From: Kordiimonas sp. SCSIO 12610
GTDB taxonomy: Bacteria > Pseudomonadota > Alphaproteobacteria > Sphingomonadales > Kordiimonadaceae
NCBI RefSeq assembly: GCF_024398015.1
Contig: NZ_CP073747.1
Location: 3,345,001-3,409,000, forward strand
Direction of reading: 5' to 3'
DNA length: 64,000 bases
Shown: piece by piece, positions 21,321-50,443 of the stretch
How the letters are laid out: each line of letters starts with the position of its first letter
How positions within the stretch are numbered: position 1 is the first letter of the stretch
Notes under the pieces: generated by a model
Databases searched by the model: none
Seen by the model: the letters and a program-made list of their open reading frames with translations, nothing else
Told to the model about the DNA's origin: nothing
Program-made: the position numbers and the translations under genes

Positions 21321-21607
21321 GCGGCAAAACCATTCATTGCGGTTGCCATCGTAATGTCCTTGAGGGTTACACCGTCTTCATCATGGGTTGTCATCGTGAC
21401 CTCAACCTTGTTGTAGACATTGAACCACTCAGGGTGATGGTCCATTTTTTCTGCAAGAAGTGCGGCCCTGTTCATAAACCCCCAAGCTTCAGAAAAGTTC
21501 TTAAAGAGAAATGTTTTTTTAATCGCTTTATCTTCAGCAACATATTCCCAACCCTTGAGCGTACTCAAGGCATCATTTATTTCTTGTTCTGTGAACTGAT
21601 TACTCAT
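21317..21607 (-). CDS. phhB: 4a-hydroxytetrahydrobiopterin dehydratase
   Basis: Pterin-4a-carbinolamine dehydratase, 96 residues, normal length. The active-site signature DHHPEWFNVYNKV is intact, with the two adjacent His plus the following His/Trp positions of the family. It recycles the pterin cofactor of phenylalanine hydroxylase, but no phhA is in the window, so its partner is unknown; some bacteria carry it for other pterin or molybdopterin needs. GGAAA lies seven or so bases upstream of the ATG. Confidence 0.92.
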   Translation of the reverse strand: MSNQFTEQEINDALSTLKGWEYVAEDKAIKKTFLFKNFSEAWGFMNRAALLAEKMDHHPEWFNVYNKVEVTMTTHDEDGVTLKDITMATAMNGFAA

Positions 21608-43149: not shown

Positions 43150-45369
43150 ATGACTGATACAATTCGTTTTGAAGTAGATAGCGACGGTGTTGCGCTTCTG
43201 ACCATTGACCTTCCGAACGCAAACATGAATGTGTTTAACGCACAGCTTATTGATGACCTCGATACTTGCGTCGACCGTGTTCTCAGCGATGACGCGATCA
43301 AGGGTGCAGTGATTACATCAGGCAAACCTGCGTTCCTTGCGGGCGCAGACCTGAATATGCTCGGTGGGCAAGCGTCTGGTGCTGAAATTTCACTGGAAGA
43401 ACAGTTCGCTGGAACCTTCCGCCTAAACAGCATTCTTCGCAAAATGGAAACAGGCGGCAAACCTGCTAAAGTTTTGATGAAGGAAGGTACAAAGCCATTC
43501 GCAGCAGCAGTTAACGGCCTTGCACTTGGTGGCGGCCTTGAGCTCGTGCTCGCGTGTCATCACCGCGTTGTGGCTGACAATCCAAAAATCCAGCTTGGCC
43601 TTCCAGAAGTACAAGTTGGCTTGCTTCCTGGTGGCGGCGGCACCCAGCGCCTTCCACGCCTAATTGGTATTCAGGCTGCTGCTGGCGCAATCACTACAGG
43701 TAAGCCGTTTAACCCGGTAACTGCACAAGGCCTTGGTATCGTTCAGGCGGTTGTGCCGTTGGAAGATGTTGTGAAAACAGCGACCGATTGGGTGAAGAAC
43801 ACATCAAGCGCGATCGCACCTTGGGATAAGAAAGGTTTCAAATTCCCGGGCGGCGCTGGTGCAATGAACCCTGCTGCTGTTCAAACATTTGTCGGCGCGA
43901 ACGCAATGGCACAGAAGCAGACACAGCATAACTACCCAGCTATTCAGGCAATTCTTTCATGCCTCTATGAGGGTGGTATCGTAAACTTCGATACTGCGAT
44001 CAAAATCGAATCCAAGTATTTCCTCAAACTTCTGAAAGATCCAGTTGCTGGCAACATGATCCGCAGCCTCTTCATTAATAAGCAGGCCGTAGAAAAAGGC
44101 TCGCTTCGCCCAGACGGGTTTGAGCGTAAAACTGTTAAGCGTTTGGGTATGCTTGGTGCTGGCCTTATGGGTGCAGGCGTTGCTTATGTATCAGCCAAAG
44201 CAGGTATGGATGTTGTGCTTCTGGACCGTGATGTTGCTTCTGCTGAGAAAGGGAAGGACTATTCCCGCAAGCTTGTTGAAAAGGGCATCAGCCGCGGCAA
44301 GGTTACACAGGAAAAAGGTGATGCGCTATTGGAACGTATTCACACAACAGATTCCTATGATGACCTCAAGGACTGTGACCTGATCATTGAGGCTGTGTTC
44401 GAAGCTGATGACATTAAAAAGGATGTTACTGAAAAAACCGAAGCTGTTATCGGCAAGGATATTGTGTTCGCGTCAAACACTTCAACGCTTCCGATTACGG
44501 GTTTAGCCAAAAACTTCACGCGCCCACATCAGTTCATCGGTATCCACTTCTTCTCACCAGTCGACAAGATGCCTCTTGTTGAAATCATTATGGGTGAGAA
44601 AACTGATGACGAAACACTGGCGCTTGCCCTCGATTACGTTGCCCAAATCAAGAAAACACCAATCGTTGTGAACGATAGCCGTGGTTTCTACACAAGCCGC
44701 TGTTTCGGTACGTACGTCCAAGAAGGCTACGCGATGGTGCAGGAAGGCGTGAAACCCGCGCTTATCGAAAATGCTGGTAAAATGTCTGGTATGCCGGTTG
44801 GCCCGCTTGCCGTGGGTGACGAGGTTGCGCTTGATCTATCCTACAAGGTTGGTCTGGCAACCCGCAAAGCATTGGGTGATAAGTATGTACCTTCACCAGC
44901 AGACAGCTTTGTTGAAAAAATGGTTGTTGAGCTAGAGCGCTTTGGTCGTAAGAACAGTAAAGGTAACTATGTGTACCCGGAAGACGGTAGCAAGAAATAC
45001 TTGTGGTCTGGCCTTGGCGATCATTTCCCAGTAGCTGACGACCAGCCAACGCTTGATGAAGTTGAGTCCCGTTTGATGGTACGCCAAGCGGTTGAAGCGG
45101 CACGCTGCTTCGAAGAAGGCGTATTGATCGATGCGTCATCCGGTGATATCGGTGCGATCTTCGGTTGGGGCTTTGCACCGTTTACTGGTGGCCCATTCAG
45201 CTTTATTGACACAATGGGCGTTGCAGAATTTGTACGTGAAGCGGACCGCCTTGCGCAAGCCTACGGCCCACGCTTTACTCCACCACAAATGCTTCGCGAT
45301 ATGGCAGAAAAAGGCGAAACTTTCTATGCCAAAGGCGACACACGTGGCCGGTTAGCGAAAGCTGCTTAA
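43150..45369 (+). CDS. fadJ: Bifunctional enoyl-CoA hydratase/3-hydroxyacyl-CoA dehydrogenase
   Basis: 739 residues. The N-terminal crotonase domain has the oxyanion/catalytic segments [18 protein letters not shown] and [20 protein letters not shown], each with its Glu; the C-terminal NAD domain begins [20 protein letters not shown], has the His of [15 protein letters not shown], and two 3-hydroxyacyl-CoA dehydrogenase C-domains. It does steps two and three of beta-oxidation. GAGAG is upstream of the ATG at 43150; the frame is open far further upstream inside the thiolase gene, but that is not used. A terminator follows. Confidence 0.94.
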
Positions 45370-45395
45370 TCTTTTCATAAATACGAAATTAGAGA

Positions 45396-45420
45396 GGGCG
45401 GTATTACACCGCCCTTTTTT
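45396..45420 (+). terminator. Terminator of the beta-oxidation operon
   Basis: GGGCGGT (45396-45402), loop ATTAC, ACCGCCC (45108 offset in line; 45408-45414), then six T. It also lies just past the convergent hydroxylase gene. Confidence 0.85.
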
Positions 45421-45421
45421 A

Positions 45422-46294
45422 TTAAGGTTCTGATTTCCAGTCTGGCGGTAGGAAAATTGTTTTGATCTTATTTCCGAAACCTTTTTCTTCTTTAATCCGC
45501 TTGAACATCCAGATAAAACCGCAGAAGAAAACAATGATTGGATTTACGCTGTTGATTGGTTCGGTAACGCCGTAAACAACCTTTTCCTTTTCTTCCTCAA
45601 ATGTGCCGAACATTCGGTCCCAGATTATTAAAATACCGGCATAGTTTTTATCCAGATATTCTGGATTGGACCCATGATGCACTCGGTGATGGGATGGCGT
45701 ATTGAATATTCGCTCAATTATTTTTGGGAACTTGCCAATCACCTCGGTATGCAGGGCTGTTTGATACAGCTGGACAACGATTTCTGCGAACAAAATGAGG
45801 AATGGGTTAAACCCTAGCATCGCAAGAGGAATATGGAAGAAAACCGGAATAAAGCTATCAAGTGGGCCCAACCGGTAGGCGACCGATATATTGAAGTAGG
45901 GCGAACTGTGATGTACCGCATGTGTTGCCCAGCCAAAACCCACCCGGTGCATAAAACGATGTTCCCAGTAATAGATGAAATCGGCAAGAACGATACAAAT
46001 TATGATAGTCCAGCCGTTAATGGGTAGCTGTGTTAGGCTTACATTTTCATAGAAATAATAGAAGATTGAAAGATACAATAGCCCGATAGTGAAGTTAATA
46101 CCAATTGACGCCGCAAGCGTAACGAAATTAGCGACCGCATCACCAAGGATATTTAATTTCAAGGATTTTTTGATCATCAATCTGATGAATTCAAAAGCTA
46201 AAAAGATCAATGAAAGCCAAAAGAAATTATCACCAAGCCACAATTCAAGGCCGTAGATATCGGTTTCTGAAAACTCTATGGATAAGAACGACAT
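45422..46294 (-). CDS. Sterol desaturase/fatty acid hydroxylase family protein
   Basis: 290-residue membrane protein with about five hydrophobic segments. The di-iron histidine clusters of the family are visible: YYWEHRFMHR, THAVHHSSPYFN and SHHRVHHGSN. The family includes sterol C-5 desaturase, hydroxylases of fatty acids or sphingolipid-like lipids, and carotenoid hydroxylases; which lipid it uses is not decided by sequence. It starts eight bases after the DUF2141 gene on the same strand and its operon lies across a 34-bp palindrome from a TetR gene. Confidence 0.9.
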   Translation of the reverse strand: MSFLSIEFSETDIYGLELWLGDNFFWLSLIFLAFEFIRLMIKKSLKLNILGDAVANFVTLAASIGINFTIGLLYLSIFYYFYENVSLTQLPINGWTIIICIVLADFIYYWEHRFMHRVGFGWATHAVHHSSPYFNISVAYRLGPLDSFIPVFFHIPLAMLGFNPFLILFAEIVVQLYQTALHTEVIGKFPKIIERIFNTPSHHRVHHGSNPEYLDKNYAGILIIWDRMFGTFEEEKEKVVYGVTEPINSVNPIIVFFCGFIWMFKRIKEEKGFGNKIKTIFLPPDWKSEP

Positions 46295-46302
46295 ATGATG
46301 CC

Positions 46303-46758
46303 CTATCGATAATAATGTAATTTAACAGAAATGTGGGCCATTCCATCCTTTACGGTAACGGCAGCCTTATTGAAACTAGGTTGGTCAAGGCCGCGCAAAG
46401 CGCCCGAAGTGCCGTAACCCTCTAATGGTATTTCACCCTTAAAATCCATAACACCATTGTTGTTAGCGTCATGAAACAAAGCAACCGCATATTTGCCGTT
46501 CGGTACGGGCGACAAGATAATCTGCTGTTTTTTATCATTTGCTTGCACACTAATACTGGCGAAAGCGCGCTTTGTATCCTGTGCATCAAAGCTAGCCATG
46601 TCATTATAGACCACAAGCAATAGCTGCCCGGACTCTGCTTTAACATTATTAATTGCGATTTTCAGGCCGTTGTTTTCTTGCTGCCCGGTTTCCGCCGAAA
46701 CGGGCAATGAGAACATAAAACTTATGAGAAGACATTTGAGCACGGTGATTAATTGCAT
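46303..46758 (-). CDS. Secreted DUF2141 protein
   Basis: 151 residues from the ATG at 46758, with AAGGA eight bases upstream, starting a signal peptide (hydrophobic run ending VSAETG). The core strands VPNGKYAVALFHDANNNGVMD and FPLEGYGTS-type end match DUF2141, a small beta-sandwich of unknown function. It precedes the hydroxylase gene. In-frame codons back to 46827 would run into the operator and are not used. Confidence 0.85.
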   Translation of the reverse strand: MQLITVLKCLLISFMFSLPVSAETGQQENNGLKIAINNVKAESGQLLLVVYNDMASFDAQDTKRAFASISVQANDKKQQIILSPVPNGKYAVALFHDANNNGVMDFKGEIPLEGYGTSGALRGLDQPSFNKAAVTVKDGMAHISVKLHYYR

Positions 46759-46802
46759 TATGCTATTTCCTTTATGATCAAGTTTGACAATAAATAGGAG
46801 GA

Positions 46803-46836
46803 AATAATAAATTGTCAATACTGACAATTTATTATT
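46803..46836. promoter_or_regulatory. 34-bp palindromic operator between TetR and DUF2141 genes
   Basis: AATAATAAATTGTCA (46803-46817), ATAC, TGACAATTTATTATT (46822-46836): perfect 15-bp arms. Promoter-like pairs overlap it on both strands: forward TTGACA at 46784-46789, and reverse TTGACA within the right arm with a 17-base spacer to ATTTAT. The nearest gene is the TetR regulator. Confidence 0.75.
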
Positions 46837-46841
46837 GTGAA

Positions 46842-47426
46842 ATGGCTAGACCGAGTATCAAGCAAGAGCGTACTGAAGAAATTCTCGATGCATTTGAAAT
46901 ATGCGTTGCAAAATATGGTGTTGAAGGATCGACTCTTGAAAAAATTGCCGAACAAGCAGGCCTGCGTCGTAGCCTGTTACGTCATTATATTGGCAACCGC
47001 GAAGCGTTACTTTCGTCACTTGTGAAGCGATTCATTAACAAATCCCACCAACAATCTGACTATATGAAGTCCCTCACAATCAGCCAACCCGCACATGTGC
47101 TAATAGATTTTCTCTATAATCGGTCTGCAGAGCAAAATATGTTCGCCTTAACTGCCCAATCATTAATTATCGCAGCTAATGAACGAGATGACTTGAAAAA
47201 TACTTTGAAAATTTGGATGGAAGATTTTGTTGAAACACTCGAAGATATTTTAAGAACCATCCACAAAAATAACACGGACGAAAATTACAAATCTATTGCC
47301 GTTGGCATTGCAGGTATCTATTCGAACTATGCTTCCCTCGCTCCACTCGGGGGCTTATCCGGACTTGAAGGACCGTCACGAAAAGCGAGCGAATATTTAA
47401 TAAACAGCCTTGATGAGTCCCAATAG
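46842..47426 (+). CDS. TetR-family transcriptional regulator
   Basis: 194 residues from the ATG at 46842. N-terminal helix-turn-helix with GVEGSTLEKIAEQAGLRRSLLRHYIGNREAL, the classic TetR DNA-binding pattern, then a helical ligand domain of about 130 residues. It is probably a repressor that binds the 34-bp palindrome six bases upstream of its start. The likely target is itself and the divergent DUF2141-hydroxylase operon. The inducer is unknown; the neighbour suggests a lipid. Confidence 0.9.
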   Translation: MARPSIKQERTEEILDAFEICVAKYGVEGSTLEKIAEQAGLRRSLLRHYIGNREALLSSLVKRFINKSHQQSDYMKSLTISQPAHVLIDFLYNRSAEQNMFALTAQSLIIAANERDDLKNTLKIWMEDFVETLEDILRTIHKNNTDENYKSIAVGIAGIYSNYASLAPLGGLSGLEGPSRKASEYLINSLDESQ

Positions 47427-47480
47427 GCCTATTTACGTACCATAACATTCGCTTATCTATAAGGCAGCAAAGGAAATAGT

Positions 47481-48131
47481 ATGCAGTTAAAAATCGATCC
47501 AGCACTCGCTGACCTTGGAATAGCGCTAAACATTGGCATGCTGGATTATGATGTAAAGGTTGCGGCATCAACCGATAGCTTGTTCACGACAATGCGTGAA
47601 GCCATGAGCTTACGTATCGATGAATTAATGGGGGAAGCCGCGTCCAGTGACCCAGTGATCGCAGGCATTCGGGAAGCATTTAGAAAAACCGGCAAAGACC
47701 CAAGCCGCTACCGCCCTTCCTCTGAAGCAATCACAAGGCGCGTCCTTGCTGGCAAAGGGATATCAAGCATCAATAATGTTGTTGATTGCGGTAACCTTGT
47801 CTCCCTGATGACAGGGATTCCGGTTGGTTGTTATGATACCGATAAAATCAACGGCGATATAACCCTGAAAATCGCTGGGCCAGGTGAACTTTACGAAGGC
47901 CTTGGTCGCGGAGATGTAAACCTTGAAGGGCTACCCGTGCTTGCCGACGATACGGGCCCTTTTGGTACGCCCTATTCCGATAGTATCAGAACGCCTGTTG
48001 GGCCGGACTGTACTAAGCTTACCTTCATTTTATTTGGCCTAAACATCGATATCGAACATGTGGAAGCCGCAGCAGAAATAGCTGACACATTGATCACCAG
48101 TTTTTGTATCAACAATGGCGATGAGGTATGA
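47481..48131 (+). CDS. B3/B4 tRNA-binding domain protein
   Basis: 216 residues. The sequence matches the B3/B4 editing domain of phenylalanyl-tRNA synthetase beta: RKTGKDPSRYRPSSEAITRRV, VVDCGNLVSLMTGIPVGCYD and GPFGTPYSDSIRTPVGPD. Stand-alone copies occur in many bacteria and may clear mischarged tRNA or act on D-amino acids, but no activity is established. AAAGGAA is about seven bases upstream. A TTATCTATAA sequence at 47453-47462 lies in front. Confidence 0.85.
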   Translation: MQLKIDPALADLGIALNIGMLDYDVKVAASTDSLFTTMREAMSLRIDELMGEAASSDPVIAGIREAFRKTGKDPSRYRPSSEAITRRVLAGKGISSINNVVDCGNLVSLMTGIPVGCYDTDKINGDITLKIAGPGELYEGLGRGDVNLEGLPVLADDTGPFGTPYSDSIRTPVGPDCTKLTFILFGLNIDIEHVEAAAEIADTLITSFCINNGDEV

Positions 48132-48199
48132 CAGACTATCCCTTGCAAAAGCTCGCCTTGAGCTATAAACCTTCAGTAGTATTTTAGGGGGATATCTGC

Positions 48200-49600
48200 A
48201 TGCGTACATTCATTTTAGCACTATTTTTTATCATTATTTCAAAGGCTATAGCGGCACAGCAACAGCCTTTTCCGCTCGATATCAAAATGCAAAATATGCA
48301 TTTAACGATGGAGATGTTTCTAAGTAATCAGATCAAAAACAGGGGCATTAGTGCTGCTGCATGGTTGCGCTTTAGAAATACATCAGAGTTACCCATTCAA
48401 GACGTAACTCTCCTTCTTAATCCAGGCCTTAATGTTACAAAGGTTGTCGGAGTTAAAAACAGAAACTTATCATTTCAGTCTAACATTGGTGATGTATCCG
48501 GTGACACGTTCAACCTCAACGTCATTAAGGTAAAGTTAGCCTCGCCCGTTGCCCCCAATAACAGCACAGAATTCTCCGTGCAATATAAGGGGGATTTAAA
48601 ATCTCTGGCTTTATTTGCAGACCATCTTCCGAACGATATTCTGAAACCCGATTACACAATGGTGCGTTTCAACAGCTTTATCTATCCTGTTGTTGCCGCA
48701 CCCGACAAAAAGGCAATCAATAGCTACAAAAAGCATCAACGCTATACACCGACTGCTAAAATTACTGTACCTCAAGGTTACTCCTTAGCTGGAAATGCTA
48801 TTGAACGTAAAAGAGTATTATCTGGGACACGAGAACAGATCGAACTGCGCGGCAGTGAACCTTCATACGGGTTTATTTTAGGACTAAGTCAATTTACCAA
48901 ACTGACAACATCAAATACAACACACTATTTTCTACCCGAAAACCGTGATGCCGCAATGACAGCAAACGCTGAATTGTTAAACATTGCAGAGACATATAAC
49001 CAGTTATTAGGACCAAGTGGTTCAAATCGAAAATATATTGTAAGCGAGCTGAATAACGCATTCGCAGAGGAAAGCGGGCAAGGGTTTGATTTTATTTCTT
49101 TCGGTGACTACAGCAAAACCAATTTCCAAAAACAGTTAGCTTCGCTTTGGCAAATCAAAAACTACACAAGCAATGATCATGGTTGGCATATAGCACTAAC
49201 ACGTATGCTGGAAGACCATGACAAAATAGGCCCATTAGGCACAACCAGTCTTGATGTTGTAAGAACGGCATTTGAAACAAACCCCAAACTACAGAAATTG
49301 CCACTGAAAAAATACGCAGAAAAAGGAAACGCTGCCGTTTCAACAGCGAACTATACTTTAATGTTCGCTATGCTGCATGAATCACTAGGTGATCAAAGTT
49401 TCTGGCAACTTATGTATGGTTTTCGCAGTGAATTTGGCGACTTTGGAGCCAGCGACGAAGACCTGCTTGAATATTTGAAGGCAAATATTAAAGATAAAAA
49501 AGTTCGCAAATTGGTGATCGACTGGATGAACAAGGGCCGTATAATGAAGGCACTTGAAAAAGCTGATAGTTTCGCTTCCCTGGTCGAAAGCATTAAATAG
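48200..49600 (+). CDS. Secreted M1-family-like protein without zinc motif
   Basis: 466 residues with a signal peptide (FILALFFIIISKAIAAQ). The C-terminal part follows the M1 aminopeptidase layout: a region that should hold HExxHxW reads QLASLWQ at 312-318, then a Trp-bearing helix, then TANYTLMFAMLHESLGDQ and FWQLMYGF, as in the M1 family C-terminal segment. The zinc ligands are missing, so it is a probable inactive member with a substrate-binding or structural role. The start has an AGGGGG upstream. Confidence 0.65.
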   Translation: MRTFILALFFIIISKAIAAQQQPFPLDIKMQNMHLTMEMFLSNQIKNRGISAAAWLRFRNTSELPIQDVTLLLNPGLNVTKVVGVKNRNLSFQSNIGDVSGDTFNLNVIKVKLASPVAPNNSTEFSVQYKGDLKSLALFADHLPNDILKPDYTMVRFNSFIYPVVAAPDKKAINSYKKHQRYTPTAKITVPQGYSLAGNAIERKRVLSGTREQIELRGSEPSYGFILGLSQFTKLTTSNTTHYFLPENRDAAMTANAELLNIAETYNQLLGPSGSNRKYIVSELNNAFAEESGQGFDFISFGDYSKTNFQKQLASLWQIKNYTSNDHGWHIALTRMLEDHDKIGPLGTTSLDVVRTAFETNPKLQKLPLKKYAEKGNAAVSTANYTLMFAMLHESLGDQSFWQLMYGFRSEFGDFGASDEDLLEYLKANIKDKKVRKLVIDWMNKGRIMKALEKADSFASLVESIK

Positions 49601-49615
49601 CCCAAAGGACATAAA

Positions 49616-50443
49616 ATGGCATATGAAACGCTGAATGTAGCAATTGATGGCCACGTCGCTCATGTTGCACTTAATCGCCCCGATAAATTAAATGCGATGA
49701 ACAGCGTATTCTTTAAGGAAATTAAAGACGCCTTTGAAAACCTTGACCACGATCCCAATGTTCGGGCGATTATACTCTCAGGGAACGGCAAACATTTTAC
49801 CGCAGGTCTCGACCTCAAGGAAAATGATGCCGTTATGGGAACCAAAGATCAGGACCCAGCCCGAGAGCGCGAAAAACTGCGCCGCCATATCTTGTGGCTA
49901 CAAGACTGTTTTTCGGTCATTGAAAATGCGAATGCGCCCGTAATTGCAGCCATTCACGGCGCGTGCATTGGTGGCGGTATCGATTTGATTTCAGCCTGCG
50001 ATATTCGTGTAGCAAGCTCAGACACGTGGCTTTGCATTCAGGAAATCAACGTTGCAATTGTTGCTGACCTTGGCACCCTTCAGCGCATGAACGGCCTGGT
50101 GCCACAAGGGATTTTACGCGAATGGGCGCTGACCGGCAGAAAAGTAGCCGTTGAAGAAACACAGCACTTTGGCCTGATGAATTATGTCGAGCCTTCAAAA
50201 GATGAAGCGCTCGCCAAAGCTCAAGAAATCGCCGCAACAATCGCGAGCAAAAGCCCAGTTGCGGTTACAGGTACCAAAAAAGTACTTATTCATGCACGTG
50301 ATCATGATGTGCAGGACGGGCTCGACTATGTCGCGACCTGGAATAGCGGCATGCTACTGGGTAATGATTTGCCCAAAGCAGCGATGGCAGCCCTGAAAAA
50401 GGAAACACCTGAGTTTGAAAACCTCTTGGTTGACAAAGATTAA
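49616..50443 (+). CDS. Crotonase family protein, dienoyl-CoA isomerase-like
   Basis: 275 residues. Crotonase motifs: GKHFTAGLDLKEN, AAIHGACIGGGIDLISACDIR, and INVAIVADLGTLQRM. The Asp in ADLGTLQRM sits where delta(3,5)-delta(2,4)-dienoyl-CoA isomerases (ECH1) place their catalytic Asp. It would help degrade polyunsaturated acyl chains. It follows the M1-like gene by 15 bases; an operon is possible but no functional link is clear. Confidence 0.85.
   Translation: MAYETLNVAIDGHVAHVALNRPDKLNAMNSVFFKEIKDAFENLDHDPNVRAIILSGNGKHFTAGLDLKENDAVMGTKDQDPAREREKLRRHILWLQDCFSVIENANAPVIAAIHGACIGGGIDLISACDIRVASSDTWLCIQEINVAIVADLGTLQRMNGLVPQGILREWALTGRKVAVEETQHFGLMNYVEPSKDEALAKAQEIAATIASKSPVAVTGTKKVLIHARDHDVQDGLDYVATWNSGMLLGNDLPKAAMAALKKETPEFENLLVDKD

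Follow-up and report, generated by a model that had tools for sequence, protein, structure and literature searches.

The locus lies in a window of 64,000 nucleotides from Kordiimonas sp. SCSIO 12610. On the forward strand a TetR-family regulator of 194 amino acids is encoded (46842-47426); on the reverse strand are the genes for a DUF2141 protein of 151 amino acids (PF09912; 46303-46758) and an FA_hydroxylase of 290 amino acids (PF04116; 45422-46294). An earlier sequence-only reading had assigned the genes in the same way, and these assignments held. The regulator was placed in its family by a domain match and by profile matches in the PDB. TetR_N scored 25.3 bits in the genome search (cut-off 24), but 22.8 bits when the protein was scanned alone with hmmscan. 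A profile search of the PDB (profile A1) matched TetR chains with a best E of 2.9e-7, which identifies the N-terminal helix-turn-helix of the TetR family. Two models of known subfamilies scored low: the NCBIfam equivalog model for BetI gave 37.1 bits (cut-off 201.3) and a FadR model 27 bits (cut-off 200). In the DUF2141 protein PF09912 scored 87 bits against a cut-off of 24.4. Its N-terminus resembles a signal peptide by eye, and it was modelled mostly as beta strands (mean pLDDT 84.2); the model had no match in the PDB at E≤0.001, the best being 2.8e-3. Further along the window, 3' of tetR (47481-49600), are genes for a B3/4-domain protein and a 466-amino-acid protein without a Pfam match, neither of which is beside tetR in the related loci L020 or L021.

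The tetR start codon is located 5 bp past an inverted repeat, O1 (46803-46836). Its arms of 15 nt each (46803-46817 and 46822-46836) are 100% complementary and enclose a 4-nt centre; the core, TTGTCA-ATAC-TGACAA, is at 46812-46827. The arms had been located exactly in the sequence-only reading. The label of a 34-bp perfect palindrome given there is right for the arms, yet slightly loose, because the centre ATAC is not self-complementary; the element is a 15-4-15 inverted repeat. No other perfect inverted repeat in the window has arms of at least 13 and a spacer of up to 10. Forty dinucleotide shuffles of the window contained on average 0.05 repeats with arms of at least 13, and none reached 15. 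Longer, TTG-started reading frames for TetR and the DUF2141 protein extend into the repeat itself; the alignment of TetR starts favours the ATG start of the regulator.

A second, imperfect site, which had been missed earlier, is present at 46775-46790 (O2, TGATCA-AGTT-TGACAA), with one mismatch to TTRTCA-N4-TGAYAA. O2 is 37 bp from O1 on the operon side, a distance that does not correspond to full helical turns. The layout agrees with the two-operator arrangement of 42 of 49 related loci described below. Promoter-like sequences had been said to overlap the repeat on both strands, and this is plausible. On the forward strand a possible tetR promoter (46784-46813, TTGACA-18-TAAATT, a 10/12 consensus match only) has its -10 element inside the left arm of O1. 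The promoter scan returned 2 such sites compared with 1.4 in shuffles, a weak signal by itself. On the reverse strand a possible promoter of the DUF2141-hydroxylase operon (46791-46818) was read by eye and is absent from the output of the scan: its -35 element, TTGACA (46818-46813), inside O1, is separated by 16 nucleotides from TATTTA (46796-46791). O2 is just downstream of this pair.

Next we consider whether the site is kept where the regulator is kept. A scan of named genomes found 141 relatives, and the best 80 of them supplied the hydroxylase loci; a TetR of the subfamily (E<1e-20) was nearby in 46 of these loci and not in 34. Kordiimonas laminariae (L029), from the same family as the window genome, is among the related loci. 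The set for comparison consisted of 49 loci: the 46, the window and three further relatives, less a duplicate (L029 equals L020), with L019, which is the window, dropped. Within 200 bp upstream of tetR the motif TTRTCA-N3/4-TGAYAA, with at most one mismatch, was found in 48 of the 49 loci, L080 being the only one without it. Shuffled controls had a mean of 0.49 and a maximum of 4 of 49. Two or more sites were observed in 42 of the 49 loci, 35-43 bp apart; the distance was 43 bp in 21 of 22 N3 pairs and ranged from 35 to 43 bp across 20 N4 pairs. An argument from helical phase was not used, because of this variation among the N4 pairs.

The motif was derived from the 49 loci prior to scoring them, and a hold-out set addressed this circularity. 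It comprised 17 additional tetR loci, drawn from 15 of 385 genomes of the class. The motif was present in 15 of 17 (shuffles: mean 0.065 of 17, maximum 1) and absent from L117 and L119. Two hold-outs, L110 and L112, repeat training loci, which leaves 13 of 15 outside the 49-locus set; these are partly non-independent, as several share a genus or genome and some are close relatives or paralogues. In 11 hold-out loci no hydroxylase was found in the 3.2-3.6 kb examined, and the operator was still there in 9 of them. Thus, the site tracks the TetR rather than the hydroxylase. Among the other TetR_N matches of the Kordiimonas genome, 1 of 18 (two of which fall in one 446-amino-acid frame) had a site, with one mismatch, in the 400 bp upstream (L002). 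Among the best 80 of 141, the 34 hydroxylase loci that lack a close TetR included five with an operator-like site in the 800 bp preceding the hydroxylase; in two of these five the site was free of mismatches. In L120-L125 the TetR subfamily and its operators were seen with no hydroxylase in the DNA examined; there a conserved gene containing a stretch like LFSGAEQYENFNRM follows tetR. Judging from these loci, the operator code may reach another target.

The earlier reading also held that the site surpasses usual TetR sites in length and exactness. This is correct for the window, in which the perfect repeat measures 34 bp; in L020 it is 24 bp long and in L021 26 bp. It does not hold for the subfamily: the conserved site is about TAAATTGTCA-N4-TGAYAATTTA, i.e. 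24 bp, and the outer bases are not kept. The N4 consensus of the site nearest tetR, about TAaATTGTCAA.a.TGAtAATtTA, likewise has 24 bp. L124, a relative, also has 15-bp arms, with different outer bases. By this comparison the operator is not characterized by the outer bases of the 34-bp repeat; perhaps these extend the consensus by chance or through the promoter overlap.

The spacer between the half-sites is N4 in 25 loci and N3 in 23. On the TetR tree the split corresponds to one change, on a branch that has support of 100/100 and recurs in all 200 bootstrap trees, although finer placements on the tree are unsure because of its long branches. None of 500 label shuffles required as few as one spacer change. 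N4 is shared by L046, where tetR and hydroxylase are on one strand, and L042, where they are divergent and the partner is protein X (see below). This indicated that spacer class is not simply a matter of gene layout. Together, the 48 of 49 loci, the 13 of 15 hold-outs and the spacer/TetR split strongly support the claim of a TetR operator, and the repeat is very probably where the neighbouring TetR-type repressor binds.

A search for the palindrome elsewhere in the genome had been proposed. The 20-bp core AATTGTCA-N4-TGACAATT is single-copy in mismatch-free form in the 3,501,651 bp of the genome (one contig). With up to three mismatches the 20-bp pattern occurred at 37 places per strand compared with 16 for a reversed-pattern control. 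Exact 16-bp cores, TTGTCA-N4-TGACAA, were found at at least three other places (2392612, 2652854 and 2661830) by a search that would miss cores with all four outer bases mismatched. One of these is inside a reading frame and two are in gaps near reading frames that look integrase-like by eye; because of these positions a genome-wide regulon is not claimed. The latter two (G000 C1:2652854 and C1:2661830; L026:3855 and L027:3831) share an identical short stretch with TTGTCAAAAATGACAA, about 9 kb apart, and possibly mark the end of a mobile element.

Among 98 related genomes, our own included, the TetR (E<1e-29) was present in four (G000, G007, G009 and G011). Weak matches of about 1e-9 in G046 and G069 were left out of this count. 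A hydroxylase above 470 bits was found in the same four and in G013; the next best scored 245 bits. G013 is Kordiimonas aquimaris (L034), which has the high-scoring hydroxylase without the TetR, a close upstream operator or an adjacent DUF2141 gene.

What does the hydroxylase do? PF04116 scored 101.9 bits (cut-off 31), the eight-histidine motif is present and its histidines are invariant in 82 aligned sequences. The only NCBIfam match was OlsE, the ornithine-lipid hydroxylase, at 63.3 bits and far below the equivalog cut-off of 475. A search of solved structures with the hydroxylase profile (A2) returned nothing meaningful; the best hit, at E 0.017, was a tagged chemokine-receptor construct. 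The active site resembles that of the alkylglycerol monooxygenase AGMO (TMEM195), an animal enzyme that cleaves ether lipids with tetrahydrobiopterin as cofactor. In the human enzyme, which is described as difficult to purify, nine histidines, Q162, D233, N235, Y236, W243 and D244 are listed as essential, and there are nine membrane segments, four of them beyond residue 334 (PMC7911779, in part). When mapped by spacing, without an aligned AGMO sequence and assuming one extra residue between H149 and H201 and another between H201 and H221, 14 of these 15 positions have counterparts in the 82 hydroxylases. Thirteen are kept in 82 of 82 and one in 81, the counterpart of D233 being N in one row. 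Conservation of several of these residues is probably a feature of the superfamily as a whole. The position of Q162 is occupied by F (59), H (22) or L (1). H207 of the hydroxylase corresponds to H225 of AGMO and is followed by 83 residues; judged by length only, the 290-amino-acid enzyme is too short for the last four membrane segments. Because of the loss of Q162 and the short length we call the enzyme AGMO-like, not AGMO. It further differs from AGMO in being bacterial and in having a partner gene. A tetrahydropterin cofactor is plausible for the hydroxylase here, since the genome encodes a pterin-4a-carbinolamine dehydratase and has two Biopterin_H matches. The gene for the dehydratase is in the same window (21332-21598, reverse strand, 113.7 bits).

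The genes next to the hydroxylase vary. Among the 80 loci (the best of 141) DUF2141 adjoins it in 14, and L040 has one more, distant match. In 51 of the same 80 a different protein, X, is encoded just upstream (e.g. L039, L045, L056 and L086); as far as can be told from the names, all these records are gammaproteobacterial. Both visual inspection and the model give protein X a membrane or signal segment at its N-terminus; in the four members tested no Pfam family exceeded its cut-off. Its model (mean pLDDT 81.3) matched ligand-binding folds of the GyrI/BmrR/SOUL type with a best E of 7.3e-6. With such a fold protein X does not look like a relative of DUF2141, which it would appear to replace. 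In many Vibrio loci (such as L057, L068, L087 and L108) a response regulator and a histidine kinase follow X and hydroxylase, and there is no close TetR. A Rieske oxygenase is encoded no more than about 4 kb away in 16 of 82 regions, and its placement among the other genes varies (L048, L054, L060, L100, L106 and others); the one member that was scanned was nearest to glycine betaine monooxygenase (GbcA-like, 133 bits, cut-off 670). A Rieske partner in the Kordiimonas genome was discounted: its one Ring_hydroxyl_A protein is located elsewhere, in a 3.6-kb locus that has no operator within one mismatch.

The association of operator and TetR, the doubled operators, the co-variation of spacer and TetR, the co-occurrence with the hydroxylase and the active-site residues, all read from sequence comparison, are in our judgement very likely explained as follows. 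O1 and O2 would be operators of the adjacent TetR, through which it controls itself and the DUF2141-hydroxylase operon, whose enzyme is AGMO-like. We infer that O1 is the main operator and O2 a weaker one. Bound to O1, a TetR dimer would overlie the -10 region of tetR and the -35 region of the operon; a second dimer, on O2, would overlie the start region of the operon. Occupancy of both sites would block the two divergent promoters, and TetR would repress itself together with the operon. A ligand, probably lipophilic, would release TetR and allow the operon to be made. The induced enzyme would be a membrane di-iron monooxygenase that oxidizes a lipophilic compound at an alkyl chain or ring, possibly helped by the DUF2141 protein, which is probably exported. 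The switch appears to be common to many bacteria, mostly marine as judged from their names. The earlier view of the locus as a regulated membrane-lipid modification unit gains from an FA_hydroxylase with an AGMO-like active site that co-occurs with the TetR; on these two points a lipophilic substrate is a reasonable inference.

Could the repeat serve something else? It might be the operator of another, global regulator with tetR among its targets, and the additional exact cores as well as the operator-like sites in five of the 34 TetR-free loci (best 80 of 141) would agree with this. Yet these cores are inside a reading frame or near ones that look integrase-like, the TetR clade is matched by spacer length, and the site goes with the TetR subfamily even where a hydroxylase was not found; we consider a global regulator very unlikely. 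An inverted repeat with 15-bp arms could also fold in RNA, as a hairpin or terminator, or be the end of a mobile element. Its position between two divergent start codons, the lack of any terminator-like site in 46600-47000, the single copy in the genome and half-sites whose position and sequence are conserved across distant genera make this extremely improbable.

Other alternatives concern the enzyme. The operator may be correctly read and the hydroxylase may tailor a specialized metabolite, as does PRUB680 of Pseudoalteromonas rubra, an alkylglycerol monooxygenase-like cyclase of prodigiosin that makes cycloprodigiosin (PMC6667630, in part). The likeness to this other bacterial AGMO-like oxygenase is by description, and the parts of the description seen mention no TetR or operator. 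The Rieske oxygenases nearby would suit such a role, too. However, the module occurs in many genera and its neighbours vary, which is more readily reconciled with a general or catabolic substrate, and no biosynthetic cluster was noted in 45000-50000 of the window; a tailoring enzyme is thus a possible, although rather unlikely, reading. A carotenoid ring hydroxylase came into consideration since many Sphingomonadales carry crtG together with a DUF2141 gene at one locus (PMC5989583, in part). There, as here, DUF2141 adjoins a hydroxylase gene, a likeness of gene position; the pathway there is that of carotenoids. The lycopene cyclase matches of the Kordiimonas genome span only the first 34-36 of 380 positions, with one of three over cut-off, so that no ring-forming enzyme is evident; the genome encodes one SQS_PSY protein. 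The carotenoid reading is not supported and highly improbable.

A TetR that represses itself and a divergent AGMO-like operon fits a known principle. Among lipid-related TetR regulators DesT/desCB, FabR and Bacillus FadR are local repressors with divergent targets. Likewise, they are TetR proteins with a palindromic operator in a shared divergent promoter and a lipid-active target. The locus differs from them in the sequence of the operator, in the AGMO-like target, in the doubled sites and in the low BetI and FadR scores of its regulator. The assignment to this principle is well supported by the comparison, and the novelty of the regulatory principle is modest. A search of open-licence papers found no description of this TetR-operator-hydroxylase regulon. 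Tentatively, and with much less confidence than in the operator itself, one may imagine a lipid-sensing TetR subfamily with paired operators as a widespread bacterial regulon. Its AGMO-like oxygenase, with an interchangeable exported lipid-handling partner (DUF2141 or the membrane-anchored GyrI/SOUL-like protein) and often a Rieske oxygenase, might then belong to a pathway for the degradation or remodelling of membrane lipids that are of the ether type or otherwise unusual.

The comparison provides a precise operator code for a TetR subfamily that occurs in Alpha- and Gammaproteobacteria, whose names in many cases point to a marine origin. It ties an AGMO-like oxygenase, for which no solved relative was found by sequence, to a regulator. 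DUF2141, a domain without assigned function, gains a genetic partner from the module, and the inducer of the TetR would indicate the substrate class of the hydroxylase.
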